Positions 1-63,790 of a stretch of 64,000 nucleotides of DNA are shown here, one piece after another (the first letter of the stretch is position 1; every line of letters starts with the position of its first letter). The notes under the pieces are model-generated. The model worked only from the letters and a program-made list of their open reading frames with translations. It did no database searches and had not been told where the DNA came from. This stretch comes from Anaerolineales bacterium. GTDB lineage: Bacteria > Chloroflexota > Anaerolineae > Anaerolineales > Villigracilaceae. A program made the position numbers and the translations under genes. The stretch spans positions 1-64,000 of the forward strand of contig JACZJB010000206.1 in assembly GCA_014860805.1 (NCBI GenBank). The letters run 5' to 3'.

Positions 1-300
1 GTTTTGATCAATTTGAAGAATTTTCTACTGCGTCCCTATATCATGGGACGCAGCCTGCACATGAATGAGGCTTTGATCTTTATTTCGATCATGATTGCCA
101 CGATTCTGGAAGGCATCATGGGCGCCCTGCTGATTGTGCCATTGCTGGCTTCTGTAATTGTGGTTTATAAATATTTACAGCGCCGAATTTTGGAATTGCC
201 TCCGTTTGCAGAGGGGGACTCCCGTCAATTCAGCCCCCCTGCCGACAAGCTGCAACCGCAAGATCGAATCCCGAAACGCGAAAAGAAAAAGAATTCATGA
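1..300 (+). CDS. AI-2E family transporter, C-terminal fragment (5' end outside window)
   Basis: Hydrophobic C-terminus with [24 protein letters not shown], resembling AI-2E/PerM transporter C-terminus; frame open to window edge. Confidence 0.55.
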
Positions 301-25166: not shown

Positions 25167-25439
25167 ATGCCTACTGTCCGCTTTCCCGCGTTGATGAAAT
25201 TCTATGTGGATAACCAGAGCGAATTTGAAGTGAGCGGTTCCTCAGTTGCCGAATTGATCGACAATATCCTCGTTCTTTACCCCGCGCTGAAACCGCATTT
25301 GCTTGATGCAAAGGGTGACCTGCGCAGGCACTTCAATATTTTTGTGAACGGCATTCATTTGCAGGAATTGAACGGAATGGATACGAAACTAAAAGAAGGG
25401 GACAAGGTCATCCTGATGGCATCCGCAGCGGGGGGATAA
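25167..25439 (+). CDS. MoaD/ThiS family sulfur-carrier protein (CysO-like)
   Basis: 90-aa beta-grasp protein ending in ASAAGG (C-terminal GG). Confidence 0.85.
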   Translation: MPTVRFPALMKFYVDNQSEFEVSGSSVAELIDNILVLYPALKPHLLDAKGDLRRHFNIFVNGIHLQELNGMDTKLKEGDKVILMASAAGG

Positions 25440-25447
25440 TTTTTTCA

Positions 25448-25475
25448 TTGACAAATCGGGTAAGATACGTAAAAT
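25448..25475 (+). promoter_or_regulatory. Predicted promoter upstream of Cys leader peptide / cysteine synthase
   Basis: TTGACA (25448-25453)-N16-TAAAAT (25470-25475). Confidence 0.7.
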
Positions 25476-25494
25476 AACCAACATCTAATCGAAA

Positions 25495-25548
25495 ATGAAA
25501 TCATCCAACCTTTACTTACATTGCTTGTGTCTATCGCGGGGCTCGTAG
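25495..25548 (+). CDS. Putative cysteine-rich leader peptide MKSSNLYLHCLCLSRGS*
   Basis: ATG AAA TCA TCC AAC CTT TAC TTA CAT TGC TTG TGT CTA TCG CGG GGC TCG TAG, between promoter and strong RNA stem; not in ORF track because short. Confidence 0.6.
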   Translation: MKSSNLYLHCLCLSRGS

Positions 25549-25656
25549 CCGCCGCCTGAGACAGACCCTCCGCAGTCAACGGAATCAGACGGTAGGACGA
25601 CCCCCGCTTGCAGAATTTTGCATAGTGTGGCGTTTGTTCGCCGTCTTTTTGTTTAC
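25536..25656 (+). promoter_or_regulatory. Structured leader RNA (candidate attenuator) of the cysteine synthase gene
   Basis: GCGGGG (25536-25541)/CCCCGC (25602-25607) with nested CGT/ACG and CCGCCTGA/TCAGACGG pairs; downstream GGCG-tttgtt-CGCC then GTCTTTTTGTTT. Confidence 0.55.
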
Positions 25657-25687
25657 CCGTTGGCTGCTTTTTGATTTAAGAGATTTC

Positions 25688-26638
25688 ATGACTTTACTAG
25701 ACTTTCGATTAGCTGAATCAAACTTACGTTCGCTGAATGGACTGCCCGCTCACGTTGGGAATACACCTCTCCTTCCGCTTCGCCGGCTGCGCCTCGGCCT
25801 GTCTCCTCGTGTCCAAATATTCGCCAAAGCTGAATGGTTTAACCCCGGAGGTTCTGTCAAAGACAGACCTGCGTTGAACATTATCCAGACCGCCATCCTG
25901 AATGGCGACTTGGGCAATGGCAAACGCCTGCTGGATTCCACATCTGGAAACATGGGAATTTCATACGCCACCTTTGGCGCAGCGTTGGGGATTCCCGTCA
26001 CATTGGCGTTGCCTGCCAGCGCCAGTTCCGAACGCATTTCCATCCTCAAAGCCCTCGGCGCGGAATTGATTCTCACGGATCCGCTCGAAGGTTCGGATGG
26101 AGCGATTTTGAAAGCGCGCGAACTTGCCGCTGAAAAGCCGGACTTGTATTGGTATGCCAATCAATACAACAACCCTGCCAATCCGCAGGCGCATTACATC
26201 TCCACGGGACCAGAGATCCTGTGCCAGACGGACGAGCAAATAACTCATTTCATTGCAGGTCTTGGTACTTCCGGCACGTTGATGGGCACGGGACGTTATC
26301 TGCGTGAGCAATTACCGCATGTGAAGATTTTGGCTTTCCAACCTGATGCATCTTTCCATGGTTTGGAAGGACTTAAGCACATGCCGACTGCGATCAAGCC
26401 TGGGATTTATGATGAGTCGTTCGCTGGTACCCCGCTCGCAGTTAAGACAGAGGCGGCGCATGAGATGGTGATCAGTTTGGCGCGGGAGGAAGGTCTCTTT
26501 GTTGGGATATCCTCCGGGGCTGCGGTTGTGGCTGCGCTTCAAGTGGCAAGTGAATTAGATGAAGGCGTTGTAGTGACACTGTTCCCCGATGCTGGCTATA
26601 AGTATTTGAGCGATACAAGTTTGTGGGAGAGTAAGTAA
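25688..26638 (+). CDS. PLP-dependent cysteine synthase family protein (CysM/CysK-like)
   Basis: GNTPLLPLRR, GGSVKDRPALNII, STSGNMGISYA, GLGTSGTLMGTGRYL; start taken as MTLLDFRL, after the leader. Confidence 0.9.
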   Translation: MTLLDFRLAESNLRSLNGLPAHVGNTPLLPLRRLRLGLSPRVQIFAKAEWFNPGGSVKDRPALNIIQTAILNGDLGNGKRLLDSTSGNMGISYATFGAALGIPVTLALPASASSERISILKALGAELILTDPLEGSDGAILKARELAAEKPDLYWYANQYNNPANPQAHYISTGPEILCQTDEQITHFIAGLGTSGTLMGTGRYLREQLPHVKILAFQPDASFHGLEGLKHMPTAIKPGIYDESFAGTPLAVKTEAAHEMVISLAREEGLFVGISSGAAVVAALQVASELDEGVVVTLFPDAGYKYLSDTSLWESK

Positions 26639-27048
26639 TGCTGGCAGTTCCAGGTGAATTGATCGGACAAATTAGCAGGCATGTTGAGGAAGCCTACCCT
26701 GAAGAGGGGGCTGGCTTTTTGATCGGCGTGGAGGGCGAGGTGCGGCAGATTTTGTCTTTGCCCAATGCACGTGAGTACGAGGCTCGCCACAACCGATTTT
26801 TGTTCACGCCTGAGGATTATCTCAAGGCTGAATTGGAAGCTGACCGTCTTGGCTTGAGTTTGATCGGCGTATTTCACTCACACCCCGATTGCCCGAACAT
26901 CCCGTCTGAATATGACCGTGAATGGGCGCAGCCTTTTTTCTCCTACGTCATCACGCGCGTGGATGCGGGCAAGGCGGTCAATCACCGCTCATGGCGGCTG
27001 GTGGAAGATCGTTCGAAGTATGAAGAAGAAGAGATAAAAATTCTATAA
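26638..27048 (+). CDS. JAMM/MPN (M67) metalloprotease, Mec-like sulfur-carrier hydrolase
   Basis: EEGAGFLIG; GVFHSHPDCPNIPSEYDREWA (H-S-H-P...D JAMM motif); start overlaps cysteine synthase stop. Confidence 0.88.
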   Translation: MLAVPGELIGQISRHVEEAYPEEGAGFLIGVEGEVRQILSLPNAREYEARHNRFLFTPEDYLKAELEADRLGLSLIGVFHSHPDCPNIPSEYDREWAQPFFSYVITRVDAGKAVNHRSWRLVEDRSKYEEEEIKIL

Positions 27049-27067
27049 TGACTTTGGTGGTTGAACT

Positions 27068-27109
27068 GCCCTTCGACTGCTCCGCAAAAGACGCGGCTCC
27101 GCTCAGGGC
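27068..27109. repeat. Imperfect intergenic inverted repeat
   Basis: GCCCTTCGACTGCTCCGC..GCGGCTCCGCTCAGGGC. Confidence 0.6.
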
Positions 27110-27142
27110 GAACATCACTGCCATAAAAAACAGGATATTAAT

Positions 27143-27637
27143 ATGACATCGCAAACCTTACAAAAAGTGGATCATTCCGCGTTAAAAACGAATCAATTGT
27201 TCATTATCTTGTTGAACATTCTGGCTTTTATCATCAATCAACCCATCCTTACTGCCTTTGTGGCTTTGGTGTTGGGAATTGGCGCCGTTTTGAAAACTCC
27301 CGGTTTTGGATTCGTGTACAAGTCCATATTTAAGCCGCGTGGATGGATGAAGCCCGATGTGCTGGAAGATAACCCCGAACCGCATCGTTTTTCACAGATC
27401 GTTGGCTTCTCATTTCTATTGGTTGGTGCGATTTCTCTGTTCCTGGGTTTCATTGGCCTGGGCTGGACATTAGTCTGGATCGTGATCGCCCTCGCTTCCT
27501 TAAATGCCTTTGGCGGTTTCTGCGTGGGATGCGCTGTGTATTACTGGCTCGCACGATTTAACCTGCCCGGTTTTGGAAAGCAGCCACCTGCGGGAACCTT
27601 CCCCGGTGCAAAGCCGAAAGCTGGGGTGACCGCATGA
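27143..27637 (+). CDS. DUF4395-like membrane protein
   Basis: Multi-TM protein with FGGFCVGCAVYY CxxC motif; 4-nt overlap with thioredoxin gene. Confidence 0.7.
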   Translation: MTSQTLQKVDHSALKTNQLFIILLNILAFIINQPILTAFVALVLGIGAVLKTPGFGFVYKSIFKPRGWMKPDVLEDNPEPHRFSQIVGFSFLLVGAISLFLGFIGLGWTLVWIVIALASLNAFGGFCVGCAVYYWLARFNLPGFGKQPPAGTFPGAKPKAGVTA

Positions 27638-28041
27638 ACTCGGAAATCTTGTTGCGTTTTGTCTCTGCAATTGGTATTATATTTTTAGGCGTGGGCATGT
27701 ATTGGCTGGCGAATCAATTTTTACTGTCACGCGCAAAGAGTAGTTTAACCTCCCTGCCGAACCCACTGCCGAATATACCTGTGATCGTATATTTCACCAC
27801 GCCTGATTGCGCGCCTTGTAAGTCCGTGCAGCGCCCCGCATTGGACAAGCTGACCAGCCTGCTCGGTGAGAAATTGCATGTGGTTGAAATTGACGCCACC
27901 GAACGCCCCGACCTCGCGAAGACCTGGGGCGTGATGAGCGTGCCGACAACCTTCCTGCTCGATGCTCGGGGCGAGGCTCGTTATGTCAATAACGGCGTGG
28001 CTCGTGTTGAGAAGTTGATGGAACAGATACAAACGTTGTAA
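27634..28041 (+). CDS. Membrane-anchored thioredoxin-family protein
   Basis: N-terminal TM; VIVYFTTPDCAPCKSVQRPALDKL (CAPC); SVPTTFLLD (cis-Pro). Confidence 0.9.
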   Translation: MNSEILLRFVSAIGIIFLGVGMYWLANQFLLSRAKSSLTSLPNPLPNIPVIVYFTTPDCAPCKSVQRPALDKLTSLLGEKLHVVEIDATERPDLAKTWGVMSVPTTFLLDARGEARYVNNGVARVEKLMEQIQTL

Positions 28042-28045
28042 TCTC

Positions 28046-28197
28046 CGGTGGTTGAGTAAGGTGAGTGTTTTTCTCGCCCGTACACTTGCACCAGTACGCA
28101 AGTGCAGGTGTCGAAACCACCAGCGAATGAAAAGCTTATTATCAAGTGGTGGTCTTGATATGCCCCTTGAAGAGCACTCGGGGCTACTCGACCACCG
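28046..28197. repeat. Pair of REP-like palindromic units
   Basis: Unit A GGTGGTT...AACCACC (28047-28121) and unit B GGTGGTC...GACCACC (28148-28196), enclosed by CGGTGGTTGAGTA/TACTCGACCACCG. Confidence 0.65.
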
Positions 28198-28231
28198 TGT
28201 TATGACAAAATAAAATTTTAGGAGACTCTTC

Positions 28232-28504
28232 ATGCCCGTTTTACGAATCCCAACTCCGTTGCGTGCCTACACCAATGGACAAGCCGAAGTCACTGTCAAC
28301 GGCACAAGCATTTCTGAGGCGCTGACGGACCTCACCAACCAATACCCAACGCTCAAACCGCATTTGTTCAATGATGGCGGGGATTTGCGACCCTTCGTCA
28401 ATTTGTTCGTGGGTGAACACAACATCAAGGATTTGCAGGGTGTGAACACTCCTGTCAAAGACGGCGAGAAGATCATGTTGATCCCGTCCATTGCTGGAGG
28501 CTAA
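28232..28504 (+). CDS. MoaD/ThiS family sulfur-carrier protein (CysO-like, second paralog)
   Basis: 90 aa, ends IPSIAGG; resembles mycobacterial CysO pattern (IPTxLRxxTxGQ). Confidence 0.88.
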   Translation: MPVLRIPTPLRAYTNGQAEVTVNGTSISEALTDLTNQYPTLKPHLFNDGGDLRPFVNLFVGEHNIKDLQGVNTPVKDGEKIMLIPSIAGG

Positions 28505-29663
28505 TATTATGCTGCCTGAATTAAATCACGAAGAAATTCTGCGTTATTCGCGTCACTTGTTGATTCCCGAAGTGGGGTTGGATGGTCAGCTCAAACTGAA
28601 AAATTCGTCCGCGTTGGTTGTGGGAACTGGCGGGTTGGGGTCGCCGGTTTCCTTGTATCTGGCTGCGGCGGGGGTAGGGCGCATCGGACTCGTGGATTAT
28701 GATGTCGTCGATTCGTCCAATCTCCAACGCCAGATCATCCACGGCACATCCACGATTGGAAAGTTGAAAGTGGAAAGCGCGAAAGCCAAGCTGTTGGATT
28801 TGAATCCCGATATTCAAGTGGATGTTTACAACGAGCCGTACACGTCTGAAAATGCGATGCGCATTGCCAGGGATTATGACATCATCCTCGACGGTACGGA
28901 TAATTTTCCCACCCGTTATTTGACCAATGATGTTGCAGTTTTCCTCGGCAAGCCAAATGTGTACGCGTCCATCTTTCGTTTTGACGGGCAGGTGAGCGTG
29001 TTCTATGCCAAGGAAGGACCTTGCTATCGCTGTCTCTTCCCTGAACCGCCTCCCCCGGGACTCGTCCCTTCGTGCGCGGAAGGCGGCGTGCTTGGCGTGC
29101 TGCCCGGCACGATCGGGACGCTTCAGGCTACCGAAGCATTGAAAGTGCTCCTCGGCATTGGCGACCCGATGATCGGACGCCTGCTTTTGTATAATGCATT
29201 GGACATGTCTTTTGACTTCGTCAAGCTTAAGAAGAATCCCAAATGCCGCGTCTGCGGACCGAATGCTGATATCAAGGAATTGATCGATTACGAAGAGTTC
29301 TGCGGTGTGCCGGGTCACGATCACGGGGACGAGGGTTCAGCGGGCGCAGGCTTTGACATCACGGCTCAGGAACTTGCCGAGCGCGTAAAGACCAATCACC
29401 TCAAATTGCTGGACGTTCGTGAGCCGCACGAATTGCAGATTTCTGCACTGCCGAACGCAGTCAATATTCCGCTGGGTCAACTGGCTGGACGTTTATCCGA
29501 GCTAAACAGCGCCGATGACATGGTTGTCTTCTGCAAAGGCGGCACCCGTTCCACGCGCGCGCTGGAGTTGCTTGCCAGCGCAGGCTTTAAGAAAGTGAAG
29601 AACCTCAAAGGCGGAATCAACGCCTGGGCAAAGGATGTGGATACGAATTTGCCGGTGTATTAA
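28491..29663 (+). CDS. MoeB/ThiF-type adenylyltransferase with C-terminal rhodanese domain (MoeZ-like)
   Basis: RYSRHLLIPEVGLDGQLKLKNSSALVVGTGGLGSP; CxxC pairs; rhodanese VVFCKGGTRSTRAL. Confidence 0.93.
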   Translation: MLEANIMLPELNHEEILRYSRHLLIPEVGLDGQLKLKNSSALVVGTGGLGSPVSLYLAAAGVGRIGLVDYDVVDSSNLQRQIIHGTSTIGKLKVESAKAKLLDLNPDIQVDVYNEPYTSENAMRIARDYDIILDGTDNFPTRYLTNDVAVFLGKPNVYASIFRFDGQVSVFYAKEGPCYRCLFPEPPPPGLVPSCAEGGVLGVLPGTIGTLQATEALKVLLGIGDPMIGRLLLYNALDMSFDFVKLKKNPKCRVCGPNADIKELIDYEEFCGVPGHDHGDEGSAGAGFDITAQELAERVKTNHLKLLDVREPHELQISALPNAVNIPLGQLAGRLSELNSADDMVVFCKGGTRSTRALELLASAGFKKVKNLKGGINAWAKDVDTNLPVY

Positions 29664-63362: not shown

Positions 63363-63486
63363 GAATTTGGTTCAAACATGCCTTTGAATCATTATAGACA
63401 TTATTGAACAAAAAATCCATGTCAAATGGATTGTAATAGGGTGTGTGGGAATCAAAACGGGTTCGCACTGCGAACCCGTTTTCAGA

Positions 63487-63557
63487 GGCGTCGACGGGAT
63501 TTGAACCCGTGAATGAGGGTTTTGCAGACCCTTGCCTTACCACTTGGCCACGACGCC
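63487..63557 (-). tRNA. tRNA-Cys (GCA)
   Basis: Reverse complement GGCGTCGTGGCCAAGTGGTAAGGCAAGGGTCTGCAAAACCCTCATTCACGGGTTCAAATCCCGTCGACGCC; 71 nt cloverleaf. Confidence 0.95.
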
Positions 63558-63616
63558 ATTTATACAATGAGGATTGCTGACTGAATTTTTTCCAATCCGC
63601 AATCCTCCATGTTTGA

Positions 63617-63687
63617 GCGGGCGATGGGATTCGAACCCACGACCTTCTCCTTGGCAAGGAGACGTACTACCACTGTACTACGCCCGC
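63617..63687 (-). tRNA. tRNA-Gly (GCC)
   Basis: Reverse complement GCGGGCGTAGTACAGTGGTAGTACGTCTCCTTGCCAAGGAGAAGGTCGTGGGTTCGAATCCCATCGCCCGC. Confidence 0.95.
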
Positions 63688-63716
63688 AGATTACGACCTG
63701 CTTACTTGGCCGAGAG

Positions 63717-63790
63717 TGCCGAGACCCAGGATCGAACTGGGGACACCGCGATTTTCAGTCGCGTGCTCTACCAACTGAGCTATCTCGGCA
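63717..63790 (-). tRNA. tRNA-Phe (GAA)
   Basis: Reverse complement TGCCGAGATAGCTCAGTTGGTAGAGCACGCGACTGAAAATCGCGGTGTCCCCAGTTCGATCCTGGGTCTCGGCA. Confidence 0.95.

Follow-up and report, generated by a model that had tools for sequence, protein, structure and literature searches.

A predicted cysteine-codon transcription attenuator upstream of cysM and other sulfur metabolism genes in Anaerolineales

The window analyzed here is a 64,000-nucleotide stretch of DNA from an Anaerolineales bacterium (GCA_014860805.1, contig JACZJB010000206.1, positions 1 to 64,000). It contains a cysM-type cysteine synthase gene preceded by a promoter, a short open reading frame (ORF) with two Cys codons, and a set of overlapping RNA helices (Table 1). 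The CysM protein matches Pfam PF00291 at 1.2e-65; its best NCBIfam match is TIGR01138 (cysM, 2.8e-99), which is under the curated cutoff of that model. Judged by their order and spacing, the genes that follow are likely co-transcribed with cysM, and by gene content the predicted operon is a sulfur-carrier route to cysteine. Two ThiS/SAMP1-like carrier genes flank cysM (25167-25439 and 28232-28504), the upstream one ending just before the leader promoter. A cluster of three tRNA genes is located at 63486-63789 (-) of the window.

Table 1. Coordinates of leader elements and downstream genes in the window.
Feature	Coordinates	Strand	Basis
Sigma-70-type promoter TTGACA-N16-TAAAAT of the leader	25448-25475	+	Promoter scanner, 11/12 matches
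Leader as a conserved cis-regulatory unit	25495-25672	+	
Leader peptide ORF, MKSSNLYLHCLCLSRGS-stop, 17 codons	25495-25548	+	Conserved in relatives
Regulatory codons Cys(TGC)-Leu(TTG)-Cys(TGT)	25522-25530	+	C-x-C in 101/101 leaders
Predicted pause hairpin 1:2, GCGG-GGCU/AGCC-CCGC, forms with leader unoccupied	25536-25555	+	Minimum free energy fold, own-versus-cross test
Predicted antiterminator P1+P2	25536-25607	+	Nascent-RNA folding, own-versus-cross test, compensatory P1 changes
P1 (GCGGGG/CCCCGC plus a second segment)	25536-25541:25602-25607 plus 25543-25546:25597-25600	+	
P2, CCGCCTGA:TCAGACGG, one C-A mismatch	25552-25559:25585-25592	+	
Predicted inner terminator T1 (25587-25593:25640-25646, contains GACGG:CCGTC), then TTTTTGTTT	25587-25654	+	Folding, own-versus-cross test
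Predicted outer terminator helix S2, GCAGTCAACGG (25572-25582):CCGTTGGCTGC (25657-25667)	25572-25672	+	Folding, own-versus-cross test
Second U-run TTTTT, directly 3' of S2	25668-25672	+	
Small P3 hairpin	25627-25644	+	Sole pick of a simple terminator scanner
cysM-type cysteine synthase gene (PALP fold), the putative regulated gene	25688-26638	+	Pfam PF00291, NCBIfam TIGR01138
Genes for Prok-JAB protease (Mec-like), DUF4395 membrane protein, thioredoxin-like protein, ThiS/SAMP1-like sulfur carrier, ThiF/MoeZ-like E1 with rhodanese domain	26638-29663	+	

A sequence-only reading of the window had pointed out the promoter, the ORF with its TGC (25522) and TGT (25528) codons, a nested stem (GCGGGG/CCCCGC, TCGT/ACGA, and the P2 arms with one mismatch), a GGCG-tttgtt-CGCC element at 25629-25642, a T-run from 25646, and the cysM start codon; all of these are present. 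The region 25480-25700 folds with a z-score of -4.9 relative to its shuffled versions.

To determine how widely the leader occurs, we searched related genomes. When DNA from 61 genomes was searched, comprising the window's own genome and relatives, the element turned up solely in the window's genus; 30 genomes carried it, often at a second site as well. We then used covariance models built from 33 leaders (R1) and 90 leaders (R2); the model by which the leaders tested below were found includes the P1, P2, and P3 pairs but not S2 or T1. R1 matched 43 of 57 genomes of the window's genus and 110 of 301 genomes of the order, with one extra match elsewhere in the class (G456). With R2, the leader family was detected in 234 of 400 sampled Anaerolineales genomes (85 of 130 genera), and a search of 400 Chloroflexota genomes gave 33 matches, all in Anaerolineales. 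When named genomes were scanned by pattern, most matches came from Anaerolineales or Chloroflexi metagenome-assembled genomes, including a Candidatus Villigracilaceae record. Eight pattern matches in other phyla (Bacteroidetes, Betaproteobacteria, Streptomyces, Gemmatimonadota, and others) were unconfirmed by the covariance model and were treated as chance. Since the R2 matches within the phylum all fall in the order and those in other phyla were unconfirmed, the leader appears to be mainly an Anaerolineales family. Antisense model matches at the leaders' own loci were left out as an artefact of the near-palindromic stems.

The genome of the window has two copies, the second of which precedes a gene for a rhodanese-type sulfurtransferase (Pfam PF00581). 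A third listed match in this genome is the antisense of the first copy. In several genomes of the genus, a third, divergent leader (CICTRRG[FH]* or similar) precedes cysK, and one such leader precedes a CBS-like gene; a search of the window's own genome at E values up to 1 gave no divergent third leader. The divergent leaders (L269-L274, L286-L289, and L291) have a longer terminator region. Tandem Cys leaders stand before one cysM-type gene in L102 (1155-1314 and 1460-1609; G292:C58) and also in L173/L177; those of L102 each have their own peptide (CLCLKRDL* and CSCLRRGL*), and such an arrangement might make the response steeper. On JAKAFP010000004, two confirmed copies are close neighbors. 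The claim of a leader before cysM stands, but the sequence-only reading overlooked the order-wide spread, the regulon of several operons, and the further copies in the genome and genus.

The leader peptides were compared in a set of 101 leaders that had been pre-filtered for TGY-NNN-TGY to remove antisense matches. Their consensus is M-x(n)-C-x-C-x-x-R-G-x-stop. The C-x-C motif is present in 101 of 101, a completeness that is partly due to selection because TGY-NNN-TGY was required; the matches failing this test were antisense ones, and nearly all weak matches examined keep the motif. The codon between the Cys codons takes 16 forms. The first Cys codon is TGC in 98 leaders and TGT in 3, and the second is TGT in every one. 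Long open frames of the window favor TGC over TGT (88:38), yet the second leader Cys codon is invariably TGT; no pairing that would explain this fixed TGT was found. An open ATG in the Cys frame exists in 97 of 101 leaders, compared to 2 and 5 for the other two frames. The distance from ATG to Cys ranges from 3 to 15 codons, while that from Cys to the stem is exactly 5 nt in 99 of 101. TAA, TAG, and TGA serve as stop codons in 48, 45, and 8 leaders, respectively. Within the window's genus, the peptide core is C-[LS]-C-[LI]-x-R-G-S*, TAG, TAA, and TGA stops are exchanged, and lengths change in steps of three. The short ORF and its Cys codons, whose conservation had been proposed as a check, are therefore kept in close and distant relatives alike. 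Of the 101 relatives, 97 have a promoter-like pair ahead of the leader, compared to 2% in shuffles. A Shine-Dalgarno sequence is present in many leaders outside the window's family; the leader ORF of the window's genus is without one.

The gene next to the leader could be classified in 98 of 101 cases (the remaining 3 being at contig ends or having an unclassified next gene), and all 98 belong to sulfur or cysteine metabolism: cysM in 55, cysK in 22, rhodanese in 12, DUF4395 of a thioredoxin operon in 6, CBS-like in 2, and YeeE-like in 1. Classes were assigned by similarity to reference proteins, and the YeeE and CBS names are our reading of the sequence. The YeeE case is L140, where a Cys leader stands before a YeeE/YedE-like membrane protein gene. 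It suggests that uptake of a sulfur compound (thiosulfate?) may belong to the regulon.

To assess the helices independently of an alignment, we compared the pairing of each arm with its own partner to its pairing with the partners of other leaders ("own-versus-cross" test) in 52 non-redundant leaders with 5,000 permutations. The 1:2 hairpin, the inner part of P1, P2, T1, and S2 each gave 0/5,000, while a negative-control segment pair gave 3,139/5,000; these counts are not probabilities, because related leaders are not independent. Since the search model holds the P1, P2, and P3 pairs, the support for P1 and P2 comes partly from selection; the support for S2 and T1 is free of this effect. Across lineages, S2 is re-made with different letters (GCAGTCAACGG/CCGTTGACTGC, GCCAGCAGAA/TTCTGCTGGC, AGCCAGTCGA/TCGACTGGCT, and ACAGCCTTCTGACCTT/AAGGTCAGAAGGCTGT). 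Within the genus, the aligned leaders have two-sided changes at five pairs in S2 and the GACGG:CCGTC helix, and sliding the arms removes most of the pairing. The stem covariation that the sequence-only reading had asked for in relatives is thus observed. The P1 arms GCGGGG/CCCCGC are almost invariant throughout the order, beyond what pairing requires.

P2 and T1 compete for one shared arm and are mutually exclusive. When folding was restricted to nascent RNA up to the end of P1, P1+P2 formed (-31.4 kcal/mol). In the complete leader, T1+S2 (-58.8 kcal/mol) was preferred over P1+P2 (-43.0 kcal/mol), and with a ribosome on the stop codon only T1+S2 was left (-45.7 kcal/mol). Much the same held for the 52 leaders: P1 formed in the stalled nascent state in 52/52, and T1/S2 formed in the stop state in 52/52 and in the free full RNA in 49/52. 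Because T1/S2 thermodynamically beats P1/P2, antitermination must be kinetic; the energetics imply that a stalled ribosome, which keeps the 1:2 hairpin open, sets the antiterminator at an early stage and that termination is the default. T1 and S2 each end directly at a U-run, and these U-runs recur across the family. In principle, the S2 pairing could also arise as a pseudoknot involving the P2 loop. The compact P3 hairpin was considered as the main terminator and is disfavored since P3 with a clean U-run is missing in some second-copy leaders (such as L030, L038, and L041), whereas S2 with its U-run is kept in all second copies. The P3 hairpin is compatible with P1/P2 and might cause some termination in either state.

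Overall, we consider it very probable, from sequence comparison and folding, that the leader is a ribosome-mediated transcription attenuator of the trp/his type that senses how much charged tRNA(Cys) is available. Upstream of cysteine genes stands a short predicted ORF whose regulatory codons specify the pathway's end product. The antiterminator and terminator helices are exclusive and co-vary, and terminator stems followed by U-runs, one after T1 and one after S2, precede the gene. The position of the codons, with the 5-nt spacing between Cys and P1, is as expected for such a device, the footprint arithmetic being assumed. Several points count against it: the leader holds only two Cys codons, and the his, phe, and thr leaders have runs of regulatory codons, more than two; the P3 hairpin might terminate in either state; S2 could be a pseudoknot; antitermination has to be kinetic; and the leader ORF of the window's genus has no Shine-Dalgarno sequence. 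We infer that the leader is translated, that ribosomes stall on it, that termination takes place, and that cysteine starvation is the inducing condition.

In the proposed mechanism, RNA polymerase would start just downstream of the promoter and a ribosome would translate the 17-codon leader. When Cys-tRNA is plentiful, the ribosome would reach the TAG stop codon at 25546, and its footprint would extend to ~25559, covering the 5' arms of both P1 and P2. The 3' arm of P2 would then be free to pair with CCGTC beside the first U-run, forming T1, and the GCAGTCAACGG loop would pair with CCGTTGGCTGC beside the second U-run, forming S2, so that transcription would end before cysM. When Cys-tRNA is scarce, the ribosome would stall at TGC or TGT; with the stall at the first codon, its edge would fall at ~25535, immediately before P1. 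Both footprint positions assume the general size of a ribosome. With the ribosome stalled, P1+P2 could form before the terminator arms are made, leading to read-through into cysM and the sulfur-carrier operon. In the absence of translation, the 1:2 hairpin would hide both 5' arms, and termination would be the default. Most likely, the cysteine-making genes are transcribed only during cysteine shortage. Much of this wiring had been anticipated: the stem from 25536 had been proposed as the antiterminator, and a ribosome at TAG had been proposed to free GACGG (25588-25592) for pairing with CCGTC (25641-25645) before the U-run. Covariation and folding agree with both proposals, which were incomplete in that S2 with its own U-run and the 1:2 pause hairpin had been overlooked.

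A more elaborate version, which we put forward tentatively and consider doubtful, is a two-step attenuator in which two Cys codons and the nested T1 and S2 provide a graded, two-threshold response and co-ordinate a whole cysteine/sulfur-carrier regulon across this order of the little-studied Chloroflexota. A stall at the first Cys codon would allow P1+P2, a stall at the second would allow P2 only, and the strict choice of TGC followed by TGT would be part of the tuning.

The leader could instead sense the ribosome but control translation initiation of cysM or mRNA stability, as reported for mycobacterial polycysteine upstream ORFs (uORFs), which are described as translation attenuation (PMC13236596, PMC9031893). 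The end of S2 ~20 nt 5' of the cysM ATG (25688) is consistent with this idea. However, the family-wide U-runs at the ends of both T1 and S2 speak for termination, the helices of the window leave the cysM ribosome site uncovered, and relatives differ widely in how far the leader stands from the gene. We therefore regard control at the level of translation or stability as unlikely.

Considerably less probable is a riboswitch in which the P1/P2 domain binds cysteine or a precursor directly and the ORF is incidental. A large structured domain before cysteine genes and the nearly invariant P1 sequence would fit it; in contrast, the C-x-C motif and the maintained reading frame would not. The P2 loop is variable in length and sequence, and by inspection there is no conserved unpaired core outside the codons, the stop, and P1/P2. 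A match to a known noncoding RNA family, which the sequence-only reading had listed among possible refutations, was not obtained: for the window region, Rfam 15 gave no family at gathering score, and raising E values up to 10 gave meaningless snoRNA matches. Among 12 other members, mostly distant, none had an Rfam 15 match at the leader. The unrelated c-di-GMP-I riboswitches detected in this search are two tandem elements at 53-230 (-) of L091, ~2.3 kb upstream of a Cys leader.

It is slightly less credible still that the nascent ...CxCxxRG peptide is an arrest peptide, with cysteine or sulfide as the signal for ribosome stalling. The R and G residues are each conserved in 98 of 101 leaders, which would fit such a sensor, but this conservation arises because the P1 arm GCGGGG encodes them, which disfavors the arrest peptide. 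Rare departures of P1 (GCGGAG/CTCCGC, GCGAGG/CCTCGC, and GCGGGA/TCTCGC) are compensatory and keep the pairing, and two of them alter the peptide (Gly to Ser in GCGGAG/CTCCGC and Gly to Asp in GCGGGA/TCTCGC). The residues between and after the Cys positions and the length of the peptide also vary. Finally, the ORF might have arisen by chance next to an intergenic hairpin of the usual kind or the terminator of the upstream ThiS-like gene. Nothing but the shortness of the ORF speaks for this reading, which is already refuted because promoter, ORF, and competing helices are conserved throughout the order ahead of many different loci.

The attenuator reading places the leader beside the trp, his, thr, and phe attenuators of Enterobacteria, which share codons for the amino acid of the pathway, the arrangement of 1:2 pause, 2:3 antiterminator, and 3:4 terminator helices, the U-run, and the location before a biosynthetic operon. 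The Chloroflexota leader differs in sensing Cys through two codons in a C-x-C arrangement, in the extension of the antiterminator by P1, and in an additional outer terminator helix that has a U-run of its own; the sequences showed no relation. T-box and SAM (S-box) leaders also exert RNA control over cysteine or methionine genes elsewhere, but they have no translated leader, and no Rfam T-box or SAM match was found here. Mycobacterial polycysteine leaderless uORFs were reportedly described by Canestrari in 2020. Like the leader studied here, mycobacterial and actinobacterial cys leaders place a Cys-codon peptide before cysteine or sulfur operons; they differ in having adjacent Cys runs near the stop. 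For Mycobacterium, Propionibacterium, and Bifidobacterium, such leaders were predicted with no conserved terminators (PMC1262725); the mycobacterial ones are cysteine-responsive, with a reported action on translation (PMC13236596, PMC9031893). The Anaerolineales leader, by contrast, is a predicted intrinsic-terminator switch with C-x-C spacing, a 5' UTR, and conserved terminator helices, and so falls outside the mycobacterial polycysteine group. Another related published case is uORFC-8-2 of Rhodobacterales cysS, where two tandem Cys codons in a uORF are conserved and ribosome-mediated attenuation with an intrinsic terminator is predicted (PMC8632094). In that alphaproteobacterial element, the adjacent Cys codons lie inside the first stem and cysS is the only target. 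In Anaerolineales, the Cys codons are one codon apart and ahead of the stem, the fold is different, and several cysteine and sulfur operons follow, with no cysS among the classified downstream genes.

Cysteine attenuators are thus already known elsewhere; none matches the Anaerolineales leader in C-x-C spacing, fold, targets, or lineage, and in the open-licence literature we found no paper on such a leader, or on any ribosome-mediated attenuator, in Chloroflexota. The present results add a predicted cysteine attenuator family in Chloroflexota that is order-wide and well supported by comparison. They define a putative cysteine/sulfur-carrier regulon (cysM, cysK, sulfurtransferase, DUF4395-thioredoxin, CBS-like, and YeeE) in mostly uncultured bacteria and give hints to the function of genes of unknown role, such as DUF4395 and the rhodanese paralogs.
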